Shown here piece by piece: positions 8,464 through 32,712 of a DNA stretch of 64,000 nucleotides. The notes beneath the pieces were generated by a model that saw only the letters and a list, made by a program, of their open reading frames with translations, had not been told where the DNA came from and did no database searches. The DNA is from Solibacteraceae bacterium (GTDB lineage: Bacteria > Acidobacteriota > Terriglobia > Bryobacterales > Bryobacteraceae). Every line of letters starts with the position of its first letter. Position 1 is the first letter of the stretch. A program made the position numbers and the translations under genes. The stretch is from positions 62,001-126,000 of the forward strand of contig JAJPJX010000162.1 in the NCBI GenBank assembly GCA_021324015.1, written 5' to 3'.

Positions 8464-8487
8464 TCAAACCCCTCCGATTTTGTCTGG

Positions 8488-8493
8488 ATTATA
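8488..8493 (-). promoter_or_regulatory. -10 box of the TonB-receptor gene
   Basis: Perfect TATAAT read on the minus strand (ATTATA on plus), 25 bases before the receptor start, predicting a leader of roughly 18 bases with a good ribosome site. No convincing -35 hexamer is seen at 16-18 bases upstream. Confidence 0.5.
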
Positions 8494-8626
8494 CACCGGC
8501 GCGTGAAACGGAATGCCCCCTCTGCTGCACTATGGGGCAAGCAGAGAGAGCCTTTTTGCCGATCCGGGACCGTGAGAGGGCGGTCCGAGGCAGTCCTCTG
8601 CCCATCCGCGAGGGGGGACAAATTCC

Positions 8627-10234
8627 GTGCTGCTCGATACCCGCGCCCGTCAACCGGAGACCGACGACGCCCCGCCGCCACAAGCCAAGTTCGTGGACCT
8701 GTTCGGCCTGGCGCTCTGCCTGTTCCTGCTGCTGGCCACCCTGGCCGTACTTTTTCTGATCCGCGGCCGCCTGCTGGAAGCTGAAAGCGCCCGGCAGGCG
8801 GTCCGCGAGCTGCGCGGCAAAGAGGCCACCCTTCGCCAGCGCATCGACGCCGGCCGGCAGCTCCTGCTGGCCGCCGAAGCCGATGCCGGCCGGCCGCATC
8901 CCGAAAGCACGACCCGCGACCAGCAGGTCATCGGCGACCACGTGGATGTCACCTGGAAATACCGCTACCACGACCGCGGCATGTACGTGAATTACGAAAT
9001 CGAGCTTATCCGCATCTCCCCCGGCAGGAATCAGAGCTTTACCGGCCAGTGCTCCAATGACCTGGCTGCCAACTTCCAGGATCCGGAGGCGCGAAAAAAC
9101 TGTCCCTGGTCCACGCGCTTCATGGCCACCGACCCCGGGGCCCTGCGCTCCCGGATCCTCCCCGACGTCAACAGTGACCTGCCCCCCGGCCAGTACCTCT
9201 GGCGGGTGGCTCCGGTCACGGCCAACCGCATCGAAAAACTCGGCCAGGAAGACGACGACGCCCGCCGCGCCGATTGGAGCGGTTACCGTCTCTTCGAAAT
9301 CTACCCCTCGATCCGCGACCGCATCTCCCAGACCCGCCGCATTCGTGTGGGCACCAATTTCGAGCAGGATACCAACTTCAGCCGCCGCGGGCCGGACGGC
9401 CAGCCCGAGGGCTTCGACATCTCCCTGGCGCGCGCCATTGTGGAGGGCTGCCTGGCCCTCGACCGCCACGCCGGCGCATTGGACTTCAAGGAGCCGCGCT
9501 GCGCGGACTACGTCCGCCGCCTCCGCAGCGATCCCAGACCGCCTCCCCCTGCCGGCGGCCCCGAGTCTGTGAGCGTTCAATTCGTGCCCGTCGGCAGGTG
9601 GGGCGACTGGCTGAGCATGCTCAAGCGCAAGGAGATCGACGCTTTCATCGGCTCAGTGACCCGCGCCCGCGGCCGCGAGCGCAGCGGCGTCACCTTCACC
9701 CGGGGCTACTTCCCCTACCAAACCGAAATCTACACCATCGCGGATATCGCCAGTCCGCACGTCACCCTCTCCTCCTGGCTCACGCGGCGCCGCACTATCG
9801 GCGTGATCGAAAACAGCACCAACGATTGGCTGGCCGGCTGCCTCACCCAGGCCTATGGCAAAGAGACGGTCACTACCCTCCGCTTCCCCTCTTATCCCGC
9901 TCTGGAGAGCGCCATGGACCGCGGCGACATCGACGGCTTGATCATCGACGGCACCTTCGTCTCCGGTTCCAAGGCCTGGACCTCCCTCGCGGGCTGGAAA
10001 GAAACCCCTGCCTATCGCTCCTGCTATCTCGCCGACCCCAACCACGTCGGCTTTCCTCGAGAAGAACTGGCCATCGCCACCGCGATCGACGGGCAGGATC
10101 AGGCTGACCCGGATCACGCCCTGGTGACTCTCTTCAACCGGGCGCTCGCCAGCGCCCCGCTCCGCTCGGCCCTGAAGCCTATCTGCGAAAAAGAATGGCG
10201 GCAGAGAGCCTCCATCTGCCGCAGCCTGGAGTAA
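8627..10234 (+). CDS. membrane-anchored protein with coiled coil, beta-sandwich-like region and SBP family 3 domain
   Basis: Function not established. The 535-residue protein has a cytosolic tail, one transmembrane helix (about 23-46), a charged helix/coiled coil (49-85), a beta-rich region resembling fibronectin-type folds (about 100-228, with DVTWKYRYHDRGMYVNYEIEL and LPPGQYLWRVAPV), and a type 3 solute-binding domain (about 238 to end: IRVGTNFEQDTNFSRR, EGFDISLARAIVEGC, DAFIGSVTRARGRERSG, GVIENSTNDWLAG). The domain order places the ligand-binding part outside the membrane. It starts with GTG after a strong AGGGGGGA site. A paralogue follows 4 bases after its stop. No ABC permease or ATPase is adjacent, so sensing or assembly fits better than transport; this is inference. 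Confidence 0.8.
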   Translation: MLLDTRARQPETDDAPPPQAKFVDLFGLALCLFLLLATLAVLFLIRGRLLEAESARQAVRELRGKEATLRQRIDAGRQLLLAAEADAGRPHPESTTRDQQVIGDHVDVTWKYRYHDRGMYVNYEIELIRISPGRNQSFTGQCSNDLAANFQDPEARKNCPWSTRFMATDPGALRSRILPDVNSDLPPGQYLWRVAPVTANRIEKLGQEDDDARRADWSGYRLFEIYPSIRDRISQTRRIRVGTNFEQDTNFSRRGPDGQPEGFDISLARAIVEGCLALDRHAGALDFKEPRCADYVRRLRSDPRPPPPAGGPESVSVQFVPVGRWGDWLSMLKRKEIDAFIGSVTRARGRERSGVTFTRGYFPYQTEIYTIADIASPHVTLSSWLTRRRTIGVIENSTNDWLAGCLTQAYGKETVTTLRFPSYPALESAMDRGDIDGLIIDGTFVSGSKAWTSLAGWKETPAYRSCYLADPNHVGFPREELAIATAIDGQDQADPDHALVTLFNRALASAPLRSALKPICEKEWRQRASICRSLE

Positions 10235-10238
10235 GTTC

Positions 10239-11948
10239 ATGCTTTACTGGATGTTTTTCGCCCTGTTTGCCGGTCTCGCCCTGCTGCTCCTCCGCCGGCC
10301 CGTCCAGCACCTCGCGCACTGGTGCGCCCAACAATTCTTCGACTGGGCCTTCCGCACCAAAGGTTGGGTCGCCACCTTCCCCCGCAGCCCCGTCGCGGCC
10401 GACAAAGCCACCTTCTCCGATTTCATGAGCGTTTCGGGCTTCCTCTGCACCATCATTGCCATCGGCGTCACCTGGTTCGGCATTCACACCGAGACCGAAA
10501 AGAACCGCCTGGATCACGAAAAATACGAATTACAGCAGACGATCGCCGACGATCAGCAGCAGATCGACGCCAACACCCTGCGCCTCAAAGACCTCCAGAC
10601 GGACAAAGACTCCATCAAGCTGCTGGCCCCGGCGCGCGACGCCCAGATCATCGATTCCCACATCGACCTCGAGTGGGACTACCCCAAACATGACTCCCAC
10701 GTCGCCTACCTGGTCCAAATCGGCCGCGAGAACAAGTTCAACCTCCAGCCCTACCGCGGAAAAGGCCAGTGCGACCTGATGCGGCACACCTGGTGCCTTT
10801 TCCCCGCCTCCGATCCGGCGGCCGAGCGTTCCCGTGTCAATCCGTTCTCCCTGGACAATCCGCACTCCGGCGACTCCCGCATCGCCGCCAAAGATCACTG
10901 GACCGGCGCCTTCCTGTGGCGCGTCATCGCCATCCGGCCCGGCCGCCCGGCCACGGGCGACCTCCAGGTCGAGGAAACCCGGCTTTCCGACTGGAGCGAA
11001 TACAGCCGCTTCACGATCTATCCCACCCTCGAAGAGCGCCGGCGGCAGCAAGGCGTCCTGGTGGCCACTTCCTACTCCCAGGATGCGGGCTTCAGCCGGC
11101 TCGGAGAGTCCGGCGAGCCCGAGGGCCACGATATTGACCTCATCCGTACCCTCGTCTCCGGCTGCCTGGTGCCCGGAAGCGGGAGCTACCGCTACGACTC
11201 CAAGCGTTGTCGCGCCGCTGCCCAGGCTTCTCCCCCGAAGGACCCCAATATCCACTTCCGGGCCTATGCCACCATCGCCGACGGGCTCAACGCCGTGCTG
11301 CGCAAGGAGGCCGATCTCTTCATCGGATCGCTTACCCGCGCGCGCAGCCGCGAACATAGCGGCGCGGTCCTTTTCACCCCCGGCTACTATCCCTTCCGCA
11401 CCCGTCTGTATGTCAAGAAGGATCGTTTCTCGCGGCTGGATTTCTCCGAATGGCTGCGCGCCCGTCCCACCCTGGGGGTCATCGACGGATCGAGCAACCA
11501 GTGGCTCGCCACCTTGCTGGCCGACGAAAAGGATGTCAAAGACCGGCTCACCGTCGCCACCTTTCCTTCTTTTCCGGGCCTGGAACACGCCTTCGACACC
11601 GGCGAAGTGGATGGCATCCTCGTGGATGACACCTTGGAACGCAACATGGCGGACGCCCGCCAGTTGGACGGCATCGAGAGCGTCGGCTCCGCGTGGGAGA
11701 CTTACCACCAGGATCTACGCTACGTGGGGTACCCCCGCGAGGAGTTTGCCATTGCGGTGGCCTCCGGCACCGACCACGACGGGAGCTGCCCACCCTACGG
11801 CCTGGCCGCCCTCCTCCATCCCTTCGCCAGGACCGACGGCGTCTCGAGCTTTTACTGCCAGTTGTGCGACGCTCTGCGCGACCCCGACGTGCAAGACCAT
11901 CTGCTCCCCGCCCTGCGGCAGAAGTACAAGCTGACCCCTGGCTCGTAA
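10239..11948 (+). CDS. paralogue: two-helix membrane protein with coiled coil, beta region and SBP family 3 domain
   Basis: Second member of the tandem pair, 569 residues. It shares the layout of its neighbour but has an extra N-terminal hydrophobic helix (3-18) before the main one (63-81). Then come a Gln/Asp-rich coiled coil (84-125), the beta-rich region (about 138-265: SHIDLEWDYPKHDSHVAYLV, GAFLWRVIAIRPG, SDWSEYSRFTIYPT) and the solute-binding domain (about 275 to end: EGHDIDLIRTLVSGC, DLFIGSLTRARSREHSG, TLGVIDGSSNQWLA). With two helices the C-terminal domain should still face the periplasm if the N-terminus is also outside. Cysteines in the binding domain (SGCLVPGSG, CRAAAQ, CQLCDAL) could form disulfides. 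Translational coupling with the upstream gene suggests a complex; no known system is recognised. Confidence 0.78.
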   Translation: MLYWMFFALFAGLALLLLRRPVQHLAHWCAQQFFDWAFRTKGWVATFPRSPVAADKATFSDFMSVSGFLCTIIAIGVTWFGIHTETEKNRLDHEKYELQQTIADDQQQIDANTLRLKDLQTDKDSIKLLAPARDAQIIDSHIDLEWDYPKHDSHVAYLVQIGRENKFNLQPYRGKGQCDLMRHTWCLFPASDPAAERSRVNPFSLDNPHSGDSRIAAKDHWTGAFLWRVIAIRPGRPATGDLQVEETRLSDWSEYSRFTIYPTLEERRRQQGVLVATSYSQDAGFSRLGESGEPEGHDIDLIRTLVSGCLVPGSGSYRYDSKRCRAAAQASPPKDPNIHFRAYATIADGLNAVLRKEADLFIGSLTRARSREHSGAVLFTPGYYPFRTRLYVKKDRFSRLDFSEWLRARPTLGVIDGSSNQWLATLLADEKDVKDRLTVATFPSFPGLEHAFDTGEVDGILVDDTLERNMADARQLDGIESVGSAWETYHQDLRYVGYPREEFAIAVASGTDHDGSCPPYGLAALLHPFARTDGVSSFYCQLCDALRDPDVQDHLLPALRQKYKLTPGS

Positions 11949-12715: not shown

Positions 12716-14923
12716 TCACTTCAAATTCACGCTTTGCGCCGTCGAAACCCCCTGCTGGTTGGTCAGCGTCACCGAGACGGATTGAATCGTGTCCACCAGG
12801 TTGGAGATCTGGCTGGTGTTCACGATCTGCCCGTCCATGGTGAGCGGGATGCTGGCCGTAAACTGGCTGCCGAACGCCTGGGAGGCGGTGCTGCCGTACC
12901 AGGCGGCAAAACTCGCCTGCACGTTCAGCGACAACTTGGTGGTGGCTACGTTCTCGCCCCCCACCGGGTTGAACTGCACATCGATTTGCGTGATCGAGCG
13001 CCCGGTCGCGTACCCGGTCACCAGCAGCGTGAACCCGTTGGTGGTCTTGTTGCTGATTGCCAGGCCCGTCAGCCTGGGCGCGGACTGCGGCACGCTCAGG
13101 GTCAGCGCCGGGGGATTCGTGGGCGTCACATCGATGGCGCTGGTCTGCGTGGCGAAGGCCGGCGTGATGCTGATGGTGCCCGCCACCGTGCCTGTCTGCA
13201 CGCGGATCTGCGTGGCGTTGTTCGGAAACACCGCCTGCGTGGAGCCCGCCGGAATGGTGAAGGTCACCGTGCGGCCGCCGCTCGCGAACTGCACCGCCGG
13301 ATCGTTGGCGAAAGCTTCCGGCGTGAAGGTCAAGGTCAGCGTGCCGGTGAGCGGCAGCCCGTAGGCGGAAGCCAGCGAAAGCCCGATCGCGGGCTGCTGC
13401 GCCGCGTCTACCGTGCCGCTGGCGCCCGTGTAGCTGAAGCCTGGCAGCGGCGCCGGCGAGGTGCCGGTGGCCAGCAGCGTGAAGGTTTGCGTGTCGATGC
13501 GCAGCGTCCCGTTGTTGGTGCCCAGCGCCGTGGGGGCAAAGGTGATGGTGAACGTCACCGTGCCCCCCGCGGGCACCGCCAGTGGCAGACCTCCCAGGCT
13601 CGTCAGCGCGAAGGTCGTGGTTTGCGGGCCGCTCACGCTGATGCTGTTGATCTGCGTGTCCGCGGTGCCGTTGTTCTGCACCGAGAACTGGATGCTGGAG
13701 GTTTGCCCCACCGCCGCCGGCGGAAACGACGCGGTGCCGCCGCCCGTCAAGGTGGTGGCGCCCGCGCCCGCCGTGTAGGAGTAAATCAGGTTCGAGCCCA
13801 GGGCGGTCGCCTGCACCGTGAAGATGTCGTTGCCCACTTGCAGCTTCCCGGTGAATTGTCCGGCCTGCGCCGGCGTGAACTGGATCTTGAAGGTCACCGC
13901 GCTGCCCACCGTCAGCGGAATGGGCACCACCGGGGCCTCCGTGAGCGCGAATCCGGTGCCCGAAATCGCCAGCGTGGGGATCCGGCCGTCCTGGTTGCCC
14001 GTGTTGCGCACCCTCACCAGGATCACCGTGGGATCTCCTCCCACCGTGGCGCTGGGCACCGTGATGGTCTGCCCCGGCAGCAGGGTCGCGGCTTGTGCGG
14101 GCAGATCGTAGGTGTAGACCGGCCCCTGCGCCGCCCCCTGCACGGTGAAACTGATCCCCCGTCCCGCCACCAGGTCAATCTTCACCGTCCCGGAGACCGG
14201 ATCCAGTTGCAGCGGGCTGAAGAGAATCGAGAACTGCACCGTCGCGCCCGCCGCCACGGTGGCCGGCGGATAGGGCAGACCCGCCAGCGCGATCTGCGGC
14301 GAGCCGCTGTAGCTGATGTTGTTCACCACGCCCTGGCCGGATCCTTTGTTGGTGATGACCACGGTGGTGGTGGAGGTGGCGTTCACACTGGCCGGCGCCA
14401 GTTGGGCTGTCGCCCCGTTCGTCAGCAGCGTGCTATTGCCCGCCGGCGGCGCCAGGTAGGTGAATGCGAAGTCCGGCGCCACGCCCGTCAGGTTCAGCGA
14501 AAAGCTGCCGGTGCGCGTGCCGTCCGTGTAGCCGAACACGATCTTGGCGCTCTCCAGTTGGCTGGTGCTGGGCGTGTACACCACGTTGAATTGCAGCCCC
14601 GAGCTCTTCGTGGTGAGCGTGTAGCCCCCGGTCAGGTCCGGCACACCGTTCAGGACGAAATCCGTGGACCCCAGAAGCTGGATCGAGGTGATGACACCCG
14701 CGGCGCCCGGCGACGGGTTGGTGTAGGTGACGTTCACCAGCCCGTTGGACGCCAGGCCGATGCCGTCGGCCGGCAGATTGAACGTGCCGCCGTCCGAGGT
14801 GTTCTGGACGTTGGTGCCCTGCTGCGTGCGGATCGAAAACGGCGCCGTTTGCCCGGCCGCTGGAAACGCCGCCAGCGCGGCCAGCGCGGCGGCCGCCAAC
14901 ATCAGCTTGCCTGTGCGGCGCAT
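12716..14923 (-). CDS. exported choice-of-anchor-D / Ig-like repeat protein
   Basis: 735-residue exported beta-sandwich protein. A signal peptide (residues 1 to about 25, cleavage near AAGQTA) is followed by five or so tandem domains of about 105-110 residues, each ending in variants of a motif with VxFxIxFxPxxxGxxxGxLxI (for example GATVQFSILFSPLQLDPVSG, GSAVTFKIQFTPAQAGQFTG, GGTVTFTITFAPTALGTNNG). This is the ASH-like choice-of-anchor-D pattern. The last third differs and ends with ITQIDVQFNPVGGENV. Composition is Thr/Ala/Gly-rich with few charges and no cysteines, as expected for a secreted or surface protein. It lies 2 bases after the propeller-like gene in a three-gene operon. Likely a structural or adhesive surface component; precise role unknown. 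Confidence 0.82.
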   Translation of the reverse strand: MRRTGKLMLAAAALAALAAFPAAGQTAPFSIRTQQGTNVQNTSDGGTFNLPADGIGLASNGLVNVTYTNPSPGAAGVITSIQLLGSTDFVLNGVPDLTGGYTLTTKSSGLQFNVVYTPSTSQLESAKIVFGYTDGTRTGSFSLNLTGVAPDFAFTYLAPPAGNSTLLTNGATAQLAPASVNATSTTTVVITNKGSGQGVVNNISYSGSPQIALAGLPYPPATVAAGATVQFSILFSPLQLDPVSGTVKIDLVAGRGISFTVQGAAQGPVYTYDLPAQAATLLPGQTITVPSATVGGDPTVILVRVRNTGNQDGRIPTLAISGTGFALTEAPVVPIPLTVGSAVTFKIQFTPAQAGQFTGKLQVGNDIFTVQATALGSNLIYSYTAGAGATTLTGGGTASFPPAAVGQTSSIQFSVQNNGTADTQINSISVSGPQTTTFALTSLGGLPLAVPAGGTVTFTITFAPTALGTNNGTLRIDTQTFTLLATGTSPAPLPGFSYTGASGTVDAAQQPAIGLSLASAYGLPLTGTLTLTFTPEAFANDPAVQFASGGRTVTFTIPAGSTQAVFPNNATQIRVQTGTVAGTISITPAFATQTSAIDVTPTNPPALTLSVPQSAPRLTGLAISNKTTNGFTLLVTGYATGRSITQIDVQFNPVGGENVATTKLSLNVQASFAAWYGSTASQAFGSQFTASIPLTMDGQIVNTSQISNLVDTIQSVSVTLTNQQGVSTAQSVNLK

Positions 14924-14925
14924 GG

Positions 14926-15909
14926 TTATTGTTCCCTCCCCACGGGTACGAAGTAGACCGCCGCGCCATCCGCGCCGGCGTCGCGCAAGACGTAATAAGG
15001 ATCCTGCCCCTGCGGGTTGGCTTTGAGCAGCAGCAGCGACTTCCCGTCCAGGGTGCGCACCGTATCCGGCGCGAATTCCAGGTTGAGGCGCGCCGCCGCG
15101 CTCCGCGTGGAGACGTCGAAGACGTCCAGCGCCTGGCTGCCGCTTTCGGCCACGAACAGGCGCGTGCCGTCCGCGGAGAGGCCGATGCCCACCGGGGCGG
15201 AGACGCCACTCGAGGCTTCGGCGAACAGCATGGCGGCCGGCTGCTCATCGAAGCTCTGGACCTGCCAGATCTGCTGGCGGGCCTGATCGGCGAAGTACAG
15301 GTCGTGCTCCTGAGCGGACAGCACGATGGCCGATGGCTGGGCGGCGCCGGCCAGCCGCACCGGAGCTGCGCCTGAAGCAACGGAGTAGACTCCCCCGTTA
15401 TCGCCGGTGAAACCGGCCAGTACGTGTGCGCCGGAGCGGTCCACGGCCAGCGCGCTGAGCGTGCCCGAGAGGCTGGAGAGATCCAGCGCGTCGTCCGCCG
15501 CGGGGTTCGCCGGCAGGCCGCGCAGCACCTGCGCCTGGCCCGACGCGGAGGAATAGACCGCGGCAGTGGCGCTATCCTGCGACCACGCCAAATGATCCGC
15601 CTGGGCAATCGCGCCGGTCACCGCCGCCGCCACCGGCGAGCCGGTTCTCAACCCGCTGATCACGTACACCTGGCCTTGCCGCACGGCCAAGGCCGCCGAT
15701 CCATCCGGCGCCACGACGGCGGCATCCAGGTCCCCGACGAGGGGGTCGCCTATGTAGGCCGACCCCGGAAAGCCGATCATGGGCCGGATGGCGCGCGCCT
15801 GCGCATCGTACAGGCAGCCCGGAACCGGACCACCTACGGCCGTGCCATCGCCCGCCCCGCCCAGCAAGGGCAGGGCACAGAGAAGAATTGCATTGACTTT
15901 GAAAATCAT
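14926..15909 (-). CDS. exported beta-propeller-like repeat protein
   Basis: 327 residues with a short signal peptide (MIFKVNAILLCALPLLGG). The body shows repeated blade-like units of the type (D/A)xAVxPDGSxAxxVxxGxVYVI: DAAVVAPDGSAALAVRQGQV, ADHLAWSQDSATAAVYSSAS, LSALAVDRSGAHVLAGFTGD, AIVLSAQEHDLYFADQARQQ, GIGLSADGTRLFVAESGSQA, about six or seven in all. This looks like a WD/YVTN-type propeller. It is the middle gene of an operon with an upstream Ig-like membrane-linked protein and a downstream choice-of-anchor-D protein, so the three probably act together at the cell surface. No enzymatic motif is visible. Confidence 0.72.
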   Translation of the reverse strand: MIFKVNAILLCALPLLGGAGDGTAVGGPVPGCLYDAQARAIRPMIGFPGSAYIGDPLVGDLDAAVVAPDGSAALAVRQGQVYVISGLRTGSPVAAAVTGAIAQADHLAWSQDSATAAVYSSASGQAQVLRGLPANPAADDALDLSSLSGTLSALAVDRSGAHVLAGFTGDNGGVYSVASGAAPVRLAGAAQPSAIVLSAQEHDLYFADQARQQIWQVQSFDEQPAAMLFAEASSGVSAPVGIGLSADGTRLFVAESGSQALDVFDVSTRSAAARLNLEFAPDTVRTLDGKSLLLLKANPQGQDPYYVLRDAGADGAAVYFVPVGREQ

Positions 15910-15933
15910 GATCGTTGACCCGCCTCCCGGCGC

Positions 15934-16557
15934 CTAGTGCGGCGCCCCCACGGTGACCGGTCCCGGGCTGATGGTGACCGGTGTGGTGGTGGGAGTGCTG
16001 GACCCTCCGCCCCGCGTGGCCGCCACGCCGCCGATGATCCCGCCCACCGCCAAAACGCCCAGCAGAATCCACAGTCCCTTGTGCGACTTCCCGGCCTGCG
16101 GCGTGGTGCTGCCGCCGGTCCGGCTGTTGACCTGGGCGATGACCGTACTGGCGCTCTTGGTGCCGGAAGTGGCCGTGACTTTGATATTAAAGCGGCCCTC
16201 TTCGTCGTTCGGGGTCATGCCGCTGGCCGCGGCCATCCCTTGCGCATCGCTGCGCGCCGTTTGCGTACGCATCCAGCCGTTGAAAACTCCGCCGGGCCCG
16301 GCCGCGGGAAGTTGAAAGACCACCTCTGCCCCCACGACCGGCTTGTCGCTCGGGTCGAGAACCTGCACCACCGGCGCCGTGGCCTTGCGCTGCTTGATGT
16401 TATTGATGGCGCCCTCGCCAGACTTCACCAGGATCTTGAGTCCGCTGGGTTCGGCTACTAAGTTAGTCTTGGGCGCGCTGGTTTGCTGCGTCCAGCCCGG
16501 CGCAGGCAATAGCAGCACGCCGGACAGGAACCACGATAAAAGCGTCCTGAATTTCAA
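15934..16557 (-). CDS. exported Big-1-like (bacterial Ig-like) protein with C-terminal membrane helix
   Basis: 207 residues: signal peptide (MKFRTLLSWFLSGVLLLPAP, cleavage near GWTQQ), one invasin-type Ig-like domain (about 38-145, with PVVQVLDPSDKPVVGAEVVF, GGVFNGWMRTQTARSDAQG, RFNIKVTATSG), a Ser/Thr/Gly linker, a hydrophobic helix (about 164-184) and a Thr/Pro-rich tail. It should sit in the inner membrane with the Ig domain outside, or pass further. The start codon is TTG, chosen because it directly follows a strong GGAGGT ribosome site and begins the signal peptide. It heads the three-gene operon running to 12716. Confidence 0.75.
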   Translation of the reverse strand: MKFRTLLSWFLSGVLLLPAPGWTQQTSAPKTNLVAEPSGLKILVKSGEGAINNIKQRKATAPVVQVLDPSDKPVVGAEVVFQLPAAGPGGVFNGWMRTQTARSDAQGMAAASGMTPNDEEGRFNIKVTATSGTKSASTVIAQVNSRTGGSTTPQAGKSHKGLWILLGVLAVGGIIGGVAATRGGGSSTPTTTPVTISPGPVTVGAPH

Positions 16558-29764: not shown

Positions 29765-31144
29765 TCAGGCGGGCCCGCTTTCCCCGTCCCCGGCGTTCTG
29801 GCCGAGGAAGCGATACAAGGTGGCGCGGTGAATCCCGAGGATCTTGGCGGCGCGCAGCTTGTTGCCACCGGCCCGCTCGAGCACGCGCAGAACGTGGCGG
29901 CGCTCGACTTCGGCCAGCGGCAGTAGTTCCGCGTCCTCGCTGCTCCGGGAAGATCCGGCGCGCAGCGGATCGGGGAGATCGCGCGCGTCGATCCACTCGC
30001 TCTCCGCCATCATGGCCGCGCTGCCGATCACGCTCCTCAGCTCGCGGACGTTGCCTGGCCAGGGATACTGCGCCAAAACAATCTGCGCGCGCGGGGTCAG
30101 GCCCCGCAAAGGCTTGTGGTACTGCGCCGCGAACAGGTCCACAAAGTGGCGAACCAGAAGGGGCAGATCTTCGAGCCGTTCCACCAGGCGGGGCAGCCGG
30201 ATCTCGACCGACGCCAGCCGGTAGTACAGGTCTTGGCGAAAGCGCTTCTGTTCGATGAGGTCGTGCACATCGTGATTGGTAGCGGCGATCACGCGGACGT
30301 CCACCTTGCGGACGGCGGGCGAGCCCACGCGCTGGAGTTCGCCGTATTCCAGGGCCCGCAACAGCTTGCTCTGGGTCTCAAGCGGCATGTCGCCGATCTC
30401 GTCGAGCAGGAGGGCGCCACCGCTGGCGTACTCGAACAGGCCGATCTTGTCCTGCATGGCTCCGGTGAAAGCGCCCTTGACGTGCCCGAAGAGCTCACTT
30501 TCGACCAGCGTCTCGACGACGGCCGCGCAGTTGCAGACCGCAAATCGTCCGGAAGAGACGGGGCTCAGATGGTGCAGGGCCGCGGCCACCAGTTCCTTGC
30601 CGGTGCCGGTAGCCCCCGTCACCAAGGCCGTCCGAAAGTGCGGCGCGACGCGGCGGACCCGGTCGAACACCTGGAGCATGGCCGGGCTTCTGCCGATCAT
30701 GCCCTCGAACTGAGAGGCATGCAGCAGTTCCGAGTCGAGCCGGAGCACAGCTTGCCGGCGGCGCGCCTGCTCGATAAGCCGGTTGACCCGCTCGCGCAGG
30801 AGGCTCACGGAGAGCGGCTTGTTGAGATAATCGCTGGCGCCCTTGCGGATCGCCTCGACGGCGGATTCGGTGGAGTAGTGTCCGGTGACCAGTACGACTT
30901 CCGTTTCCGGCGAGAGTTCGAGCGTCCGCTCGAGCACTTCCATACCGCTCATTTCGGGCATGACCAGGTCCAGCAGCAGGATGTCGGGGTGCGTGCCGCG
31001 GATGAGTTCGAGGCCGGAGCGGGGATCGGTAGCAGTCAAGACCTGCAAGGGCTGCTGCTTTAGAGCTGCCGTCACCAGTTTGAGGCTCTCCGGATCATCG
31101 TCAATCGCGACGAGGGTGGCGAGTGGCTTTTCCACGGGCGTCAT
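29765..31144 (-). CDS. NtrC-family sigma-54-dependent response regulator
   Basis: 459 residues. Receiver domain: acidic pair D15/D16 (VAIDDDPES), phospho-acceptor D59 (DILLLDLVMPEMSG), Lys in DYLNKPLS. Central AAA+ domain: Walker A VTGATGTGKE (176-185), GAFTGA loop (224-229) that contacts sigma-54, Walker B GALLLDEIGD. C-terminal Fis-type helix-turn-helix: GNKLRAAKILGIHRATLYRF. It should activate sigma-54 promoters once phosphorylated by the kinase encoded just upstream, whose stop overlaps this ATG (ATGA, 31141-31144). Target genes are not known; no clear -24/-12 promoter was found in the adjacent spacers. Confidence 0.95.
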   Translation of the reverse strand: MTPVEKPLATLVAIDDDPESLKLVTAALKQQPLQVLTATDPRSGLELIRGTHPDILLLDLVMPEMSGMEVLERTLELSPETEVVLVTGHYSTESAVEAIRKGASDYLNKPLSVSLLRERVNRLIEQARRRQAVLRLDSELLHASQFEGMIGRSPAMLQVFDRVRRVAPHFRTALVTGATGTGKELVAAALHHLSPVSSGRFAVCNCAAVVETLVESELFGHVKGAFTGAMQDKIGLFEYASGGALLLDEIGDMPLETQSKLLRALEYGELQRVGSPAVRKVDVRVIAATNHDVHDLIEQKRFRQDLYYRLASVEIRLPRLVERLEDLPLLVRHFVDLFAAQYHKPLRGLTPRAQIVLAQYPWPGNVRELRSVIGSAAMMAESEWIDARDLPDPLRAGSSRSSEDAELLPLAEVERRHVLRVLERAGGNKLRAAKILGIHRATLYRFLGQNAGDGESGPA

Positions 31145-32712
31145 GGAAGGCCTCCGGCCGCGGATTCGGCCTGTTCCACCGCGAGGGTGAAGGTAAAGCG
31201 GCTGCCTTTGGCCGGCTCGCTTTCCACCCAAATGGCGCCGCCGTGCAACTCGACCAGCCGTTTGGTGATGGCCAGGCCCAGGCCAGCGCCCGCGGGGACG
31301 CTTTTCGGAGCTTTTCCGGGCCGGAACTCGTCGAAAATTCCGGACTGCTCCTCCAAGGGGATGCCGATCCCCGTGTCGGCGACGGAAAAGCGGAGGGCCC
31401 GCGGCTCCCGGGAGGCCTTGATGGTCACCCGGCCGCGCTCGGGAGTGAACTTCACGGCGTTGCTCAGGAGGTTCAGGAAGATTTGCCGGAAGCGCGTGCG
31501 GTCGGCGCAAACCGAGAGATGCGCCGGCACGTAGCTGTCCACCAGGATCCTTTTGGCTGCCGCAAGCGGCGCGATGGTGGAGAGCACCTCGGCAAGCACA
31601 TCCGACGCTTGAAACGGCTCCAGCCGGAGCTCGACCCGCCCGGCCTCGATCTTCGATAGGTCGAGAAGATCGTTGATCATCTCCACGAGATGGCGCGCCG
31701 CGCCGCGGATACTGGCGACGAAGTCCCGGTAGGTCTGGTGGAGTGGTCCTTCGCCCTCTTCCGCCAGCAGGTCGGAGAAGCCGACGATGGCGTTCAGAGG
31801 GGTGCGGAACTCATGACTCATGCGGGCCAGGAATTCACTCTTCCGGCGGGTAGCCCGCGCCAGCTCCGCGTTGGTTTCAGCGAGCTGGCGGTTGGCTTCG
31901 GTGAGCTGGGCGGTGCGTTCGGCGATGAGCTCTTCCAGGTCGGCGTTCAGACGCCGGACCTGCCCTTCGGCCCGGTCGCGCTGGGTCTCCTGGGCAATCT
32001 TCTCAAGGGCGAAGCCGAGATCCGCCGTCACCTCGTCGAGGAGGGAGACAATATCCGGATCGAAGAAATCGGGCTCGGCGGCGTAAACCGTGAAGGCGCC
32101 GACGAGCTTCCCCTCGACGCACAGGGGAAAGGCAGCGTTCGAGCGGTACCCTCGCCGCAGAGCTTCGTGGCGCCAGGGACCCATCCGTGGGTCGGCGCCA
32201 ATATCCGTGCACACGAAATGCCGCACCTCGCGCAAGGCGGCCCCGGTGGGACCACGGCCCTCCGGCTCTTCGGCAACGGAAATTCTGATGTTCTGGAGAT
32301 ACCCTTCTTCGAAGCCCGCGTGAGCGACGGGAACCACCAGGCCCGTGCGTTCATCCACTAGGCCCACCCACGCCATCCGAAGCAGGCCATGTTCCACGGC
32401 GGCGCGGCAGGCTTCCGCAAAGAGCAGGTCGCGTCCGCGAACCCGCGTGATCGCCTGGTTGATGTGCGTCAAGGTTGCGTACATCCGGTTCAAGCGCGCC
32501 AGCCGGGTTTCGGCCCGGCCGCGCCGGGCGACTTCCCGTGCCAGCCAGTAGTACACGGTGGAAAGGATGGCCACACCGAGGAGCGCGCCCATCCCGAGCA
32601 GGAACGCGGGGCTTCCAGCGCTCCGCGGGGCAGCGCGCGCCGGAGTGACGTACCAAAGCGCCAGGGCCAAAAGAAAGGCCAACCCACCCGCGTTCTTGAA
32701 CAGCGTCTTCAT
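31141..32712 (-). CDS. membrane sensor histidine kinase with GAF domain
   Basis: 523 residues: two transmembrane helices (about 8-28 and 35-57), a GAF domain (about 92-237, MAWVGLVDERTGLVVPVAHA and AAFPLCVEGKLVGAFTVYAAE), a coiled-coil (245-292), a HisKA domain with H300 (FLARMSHEFRTPLNAIVGF) and a HATPase_c domain (N box FLNLLSNAVKFTPE, G1 VADTGIGIP, G2 AGLGLAITKRLVE). It partners the NtrC-type regulator encoded next. The periplasmic part is only a few residues, so the signal is probably sensed by the GAF domain inside the cell. Confidence 0.94.
   Translation of the reverse strand: MKTLFKNAGGLAFLLALALWYVTPARAAPRSAGSPAFLLGMGALLGVAILSTVYYWLAREVARRGRAETRLARLNRMYATLTHINQAITRVRGRDLLFAEACRAAVEHGLLRMAWVGLVDERTGLVVPVAHAGFEEGYLQNIRISVAEEPEGRGPTGAALREVRHFVCTDIGADPRMGPWRHEALRRGYRSNAAFPLCVEGKLVGAFTVYAAEPDFFDPDIVSLLDEVTADLGFALEKIAQETQRDRAEGQVRRLNADLEELIAERTAQLTEANRQLAETNAELARATRRKSEFLARMSHEFRTPLNAIVGFSDLLAEEGEGPLHQTYRDFVASIRGAARHLVEMINDLLDLSKIEAGRVELRLEPFQASDVLAEVLSTIAPLAAAKRILVDSYVPAHLSVCADRTRFRQIFLNLLSNAVKFTPERGRVTIKASREPRALRFSVADTGIGIPLEEQSGIFDEFRPGKAPKSVPAGAGLGLAITKRLVELHGGAIWVESEPAKGSRFTFTLAVEQAESAAGGLP

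Follow-up and report, generated by a model that had tools for sequence, protein, structure and literature searches.

Type-3 solute-binding domains (SBP3), which fold as Venus flytraps, are known components of ABC transporters and also of kinases, cyclases and ion channels. Histidine kinases of the BvgS/EvgS type are SBP3 receptors with cytoplasmic output, and in GluR0 a channel pore interrupts the SBP domain. The use of SBP domains as receptor ectodomains is established (PMC9602780, PMC8846402), as in RmcA, an arginine-sensing c-di-GMP phosphodiesterase with an SBP3 ectodomain (PMC8846402). SBP3 signalling free of any transporter is established as well: in Corynebacterium and Mycobacterium, the SBP3 lipoprotein GlnH binds aspartate or glutamate and signals through GlnX to PknG (PMC9769921). 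Here we describe two tandem genes, encoding P0001 and P0002 (Table 1), from a 64,000-nucleotide stretch of a Solibacteraceae genome (the window, assembly GCA_021324015.1). The first-pass annotation had suggested that the pair could be a receptor of a new kind, which goes too far given GlnH-GlnX-PknG and RmcA. The reading that we prefer, and to which we give an even chance of being right, is that the two products are inner-membrane, periplasm-facing receptors for amino acids or amino-acid-like ligands, and that both are cases of a rare, ABC-independent module of patchy occurrence in which a transmembrane (TM) helix is followed by a fibronectin type III (FnIII)-like domain and an SBP3 domain.

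Table 1. Features of the tandem gene pair, in window coordinates.
Feature	Position	Strand	Basis or remark
Upstream intergenic, presumed promoter region	8464..8626	.	163 bp between divergent Oar-like TonB gene and pair; ORF layout
Shine-Dalgarno-like GAGGGGGG	8610..8617	+	9 bases upstream of gene 1 GTG start; sequence
Gene 1 (P0001, 535 aa, GTG start)	8627..10234	+	TM - helix - FnIII-like - SBP3
Gene 1 single TM helix (aa 27-45)	8705..8761	+	hydropathy 2.91; within AF2 helix 22-86; N-terminal tail ahead ~22-26 aa
Gene 1 juxtamembrane helix (aa 46-86), possible coiled coil	8762..8884	+	AF2 helix; modest heptad content
Gene 1 FnIII-like beta-sandwich (aa 98-228), Cys142/Cys159 insert	8918..9310	+	alignment to gene 2
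Gene 1 SBP3 (aa 229-535)	9311..10231	+	T345, R350, S397, T398, D441; lobe-1 insert with Cys275/Cys292
Gene 2 (P0002, 569 aa, ATG start)	10239..11948	+	TM - loop - TM - helix - FnIII-like - SBP3
Gene 2 TM helix 1 (aa 1-19)	10239..10295	+	hydropathy 1.95
Gene 2 loop (aa 20-58, 39 aa), presumed cytoplasmic	10296..10412	+	TM prediction; topology inferred
Gene 2 TM helix 2 (about aa 59-81)	10413..10481	+	hydropathy 1.73
Gene 2 juxtamembrane helix (aa 82-130)	10482..10628	+	weak DivIC-like TM/coiled-coil match, E 0.003
Gene 2 FnIII-like domain (aa 131-263)	10629..11027	+	AF2 model matches FnIII structures
Gene 2 SBP3 (aa 264-569)	11028..11945	+	T366, R371, S418, S419, D463; Cys309/Cys324

The two proteins are paralogous over their whole shared length, far beyond chance (32% identity across 520 aa, E = 6e-70; local alignment score 586, against 39+/-5 for shuffled sequences). 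The first-pass annotation had described adjacent paralogues 4 bases apart, one with a single membrane helix and the other with two, and this description was borne out: its coordinates and frames are exact, the gap between the genes is 4 bases, and hydropathy gives one strong TM helix in gene 1 (aa 27-45) and two in gene 2 (aa 1-19 and 59-77). Each gene has a plausible ribosome-binding site, that of gene 2 (GGAG) overlapping the end of gene 1, and a consensus scan found no sigma-70-type site in the 163-bp upstream region. The pair is flanked upstream by a divergent Oar-like TonB receptor gene and downstream by a convergent Transglut_core2 gene, around which synteny is not conserved among relatives. 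Neither an ABC permease nor a histidine kinase adjoins the pair, as had been noted at first pass, and the nearest confirmed histidine kinase lies ~19 kb away (31141-32712). Both frames are intact, and the GC and GC3 of the pair (GC3 = 0.84 in gene 1 and 0.83 in gene 2) are like those of the window and give no hint of recent acquisition from a foreign source. Elsewhere in the window, three successive exported-looking genes on the minus strand (12716-16557), with ASH/HYDIN-type Ig domains, an SGL-like propeller and a carboxypeptidase-regulatory-like domain, perhaps form a surface-structure operon.

From profile matches, and for P0002 also from its 32% full-length identity to P0001, both members can be assigned a type-3 solute-binding domain. 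P0001 matched SBP_bac_3 (PF00497) above the gathering cut-off of 26.4 (E = 4.6e-6, 26.9 bits) and P0002 below it (E = 0.0026, 18 bits), while TIGR01096 matched both (4.8e-8 and 3.2e-5). A profile built from the pair and a distant relative, P0003, recovered 89 PDB sequences (E ≤ 1), with the ancestral amino-acid-binding protein AncQR, cyclohexadienyl dehydratase and LAO/His-binding proteins at the top and GluR0 lower. The SBP3 ligand core of GluR0 (Slr1257) is homologous in sequence (1ii5, E = 4e-5), but its channel pore lies within the SBP domain, whereas hydropathy reveals no TM segment inside the SBP domains of the pair. Alignment to the LAO-binding protein, with the sequence, numbering and residue roles that we assume for it, places R350/R371 at Arg77, D441/D463 at Asp161, T345/T366 at Ser72, S397/S418 at Ser120 and T398/S419 at Thr121, which we take to be the residues holding the alpha-amino acid. 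The pocket arginine and aspartate, proposed at first pass as a check, are thus conserved in both copies, and R77, D161, S/T72, S/T120 and S/T121 of the LAO type are also kept in P0003 and in a second relative, P0004. Asp11 and Tyr14, which presumably contact the side chain of cationic ligands, are not conserved in the pair. Because the residues for the alpha-amino acid are kept and these two are not, the ligand is probably an amino acid or something similar, and not specifically lysine or arginine. Cysteine pairs are common to both copies in the lobe-1 insert of the SBP domain (275/292 and 309/324) and in the stalk (142/159 and 178/186), which fits a periplasmic, oxidising location.

No Pfam family matched the middle region. 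When modelled with AF2, this part of gene 2 has 7 strands at low confidence (pLDDT 48.5); with the model, the Foldseek list was mostly FnIII (best E = 0.037), and VIA-align returned nearly all FnIII structures (Z 5.9-6.8 over 79-92 residues). An FnIII-like pattern can also be read in the sequence (strand B xVDxxWxY, strand F YLWRVxx, strand G DWSxYxxFxIYP), and we regard the beta-sandwich as FnIII-like with moderate certainty. For full-length P0001 the AF2 model is poor (pLDDT 41), with residues 22-86 as one continuous helix (pLDDT about 60-80). The heptad content of the juxtamembrane helices is modest, and those of gene 1 and gene 2 align no better than chance. The domain order given at first pass stood for the membrane helix, the beta-sandwich and the SBP3 domain, while the predicted coiled coil is only partly supported; the FnIII nature of the stalk, like the caspase-fused relative described below, went beyond what had been foreseen. 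A tie to cell division through the weak DivIC match was rejected, the match spanning TM and helix only. Searches with PADLOC and PHROGs gave nothing convincing for the pair, an LmuB match (E = 0.031) falling in the helical part. Pfam and NCBIfam scans detected no output domain in P0001 or P0002, and the Pfam scan no recognised domain in the loop of gene 2, which is presumably the one stretch of appreciable size that the pair exposes to the cytoplasm.

Relatives of the pair are few. Searches of about 1,000 genomes of the phylum, in overlapping sets at the level of phylum (396), class (399) and order (257), of which the first two are samples, gave no close homologue, and there is no further homologue in its own genome. 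Genome-contig searches with P0002 and with the pair alignment found no relatives, a weak negative given that the method needs exact short-peptide matches. Scans of viral contigs found no relative, and tblastn gave no match for P0001 and P0002 against plasmids or for P0002 against phages; P0003 and P0004 matched only ordinary SBPs or caspases on plasmids, with no full-length fusion among them. The two distant relatives, P0003 and P0004, came from profile searches. Among other candidates, a match in genome G781 was an unrelated ORF, and those in G892 and G973, together with the matches other than P0004 in further searches, were ordinary SBPs, SBP-permease fusions or SBP kinases. SBP3 proteins at four other loci (L040, L041, L052 and L053, phylum family f29) carry a C-terminal extension of ~110 aa that looks like a small additional domain and has KAPK.I.......MDRLDGF.L.LEG as a common motif.

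P0003 (G615:C30, 456 aa) is a stand-alone protein whose TM segments are followed by a short FnIII-like region and then SBP3. Its neighbours are an IS66-type transposase and enzymes, with no ABC genes. Near P0003, ~5-8 kb into L032 (G615:C30:60001-75000), there is a nucleotidyltransferase with a CD-NTase-like look, an AAA ATPase and a possible WYL-type regulator, by eye a possible defence island. P0004 (L063:7127-9313, minus strand, G372:C8, 728 aa) resembles the prokaryotic caspase homologues (orthocaspases/metacaspases; PMC3501461) in its N-terminal caspase domain (Peptidase_C14, E = 1.5e-14, with GHG and DCCYSG motifs), which is followed by one TM helix, an FnIII-like part (INWRVR...RWSNWSNFKLYR) and an SBP3 domain (E = 4.4e-10), making it a candidate ligand-gated membrane protease. 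Unlike P0004, the window pair has no caspase by Pfam, and tblastn with P0004 residues 1-245 as the single query found none on the pair's contig, C111. No second caspase fusion was found in 92 other genomes of the same class as that of P0004. The main text of a caspase survey (PMC3501461) makes no mention of SBP, solute/substrate-binding or fibronectin, and we found no description in the open-licence literature of a caspase-SBP fusion, of a C-terminal SBP3 domain on an FnIII stalk or of an output-less tandem of this kind.

The four proteins share the order TM-FnIII-SBP3 and a junction between FnIII and SBP3 in which a tyrosine is followed six residues on by an arginine ([IL]Y[PR]xxxxxR). When only sequence is compared, the FnIII-like parts of these two relatives, P0003 and P0004, are weakly linked to those of the pair (z about 1 to 4). 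In a maximum-likelihood SBP3 tree of 38 rows (the four module proteins, LAO and 33 other SBP3 matches from the same searches), the domains of P0001-P0004 group together (91/93; 89% of bootstrap trees), and P0003 lies next to the window pair (98/79). The support for this grouping is good but not decisive, P0004 being on a long branch. As judged from the same tree, the pair is a lineage-specific tandem duplication, the window copies being sisters (100/99) with a longer branch for gene 2 (1.06 vs 0.49). The relatives found lie outside ABC operons, unlike the homologues routinely encoded in such operons that the first-pass annotation had named as refuting its proposal.

In what we infer of topology, ligand class, signalling role, partner and co-assembly of the two products, the FnIII-like stalk and the juxtamembrane helix would hold the type-3 Venus flytrap off the membrane, the flytrap would close on an amino-acid-like ligand, and closure would be passed via the stalk and the TM helix to a cytoplasmic partner. 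In P0004 this partner would be the caspase-family protease of the same chain; for the window pair, it would be a separate protein, for which the gene 2 loop is a possible docking site. Since only ~26 + 39 residues of the pair are presumed to be cytoplasmic, a partner in trans would be required. The tandem arrangement and the differing TM layout make a hetero-oligomer of P0001 and P0002 plausible. BvgS/EvgS-type kinases and RmcA likewise use SBP3 as the ectodomain of a transmembrane receptor. However, in the SBP3 kinase matches examined, SBP3 is N-terminal and the output C-terminal, whereas the TM-FnIII-SBP3 family has SBP3 at the C-terminus, separated from the TM by FnIII; the window pair, unlike SBP-type sensor kinases and cyclases, has no cytoplasmic output domain in the same chain. 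Several points speak against the receptor reading: besides the missing output domain, the weak FnIII sequence link and the less than decisive SBP grouping, there is no candidate partner next door, the contig gave no caspase, a single caspase fusion was found and the AF2 models are of low confidence.

The precedent of GlnH, GlnX and PknG (PMC9769921) suggests another arrangement, in which the pair would sense an amino acid and activate a separate transmitter or soluble kinase in trans, with gene 2 as transmitter and gene 1 as co-receptor. As in that system, SBP3 would bind an amino acid at the outer face of the inner membrane and signal instead of transporting. The pair may function by analogy with it, and the extra TM helix and 39-aa loop are found in gene 2 alone. 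However, GlnH, a lipoprotein, has neither FnIII nor TM and works through the four-TM GlnX and a kinase, while in the pair SBP3 shares its chain with a TM and an FnIII stalk and is duplicated in tandem, the anchor being a TM helix instead of a lipobox. With no GlnX-like four-TM protein or kinase adjoining and with a gene 2 loop that is short and lacks a recognised domain, we consider this specific arrangement unlikely. The two copies could also be ectodomains that have lost an effector, such as a caspase, and that now sequester ligand, attenuate full receptors or serve no function. The effector of P0004 in its own chain, its absence from the window copies, the longer branch of gene 2 and the finding of the pair in its own genome only all suit such a remnant or decoy, but the intact frames with genome-typical GC3, the retention of all tested pocket residues in both copies and the lack of any further homologue in the genome to be dampened make it improbable. 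That the pair are membrane-tethered binding proteins feeding a permease, of the amino-acid ABC type or another, whose gene lies elsewhere in the genome is very unlikely: SBP3 domains are typically ABC components, the intact pockets would suit capture and SBP genes distant from their transporter genes are known (PMC9602780), but the own genome (8.2 Mb, 98.8% complete) has no polar-amino-acid (PAAT) ABC permease domain TIGR01726 in a search whose controls were positive in 11/14 genomes, the proteins have an FnIII stalk and a TM anchor that looks uncleaved, and the relatives are likewise without adjoining transporter genes. The pair therefore does not qualify as the binding component of a PAAT transporter, and a transport role is unlikely because no permease adjoins the pair and TIGR01726 has no match in so complete a genome. 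The own genome gave no other strong PF00497 match; since the pair itself escaped this search, weak SBP3s may be present.

Returning to the receptor reading, a bolder extension of it is a hitherto unrecognised class of bacterial receptors in which an amino-acid-gated SBP3-FnIII ectodomain controls cytoplasmic caspase-type proteases: one lineage would have the two in a single chain, and in the window organism a two-subunit receptor would act on an effector in trans; we consider this doubtful. To our knowledge, the triggers of most bacterial caspase homologues are unknown. An FnIII-stalked, transporter-free SBP3 protein with a caspase-fused relative would tie extracellular amino-acid sensing to bacterial caspase-type proteolysis. 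P0004 offers a directly testable chain from ligand through receptor to protease, and the window pair would be a two-gene receptor in which the choice of partner can be studied.
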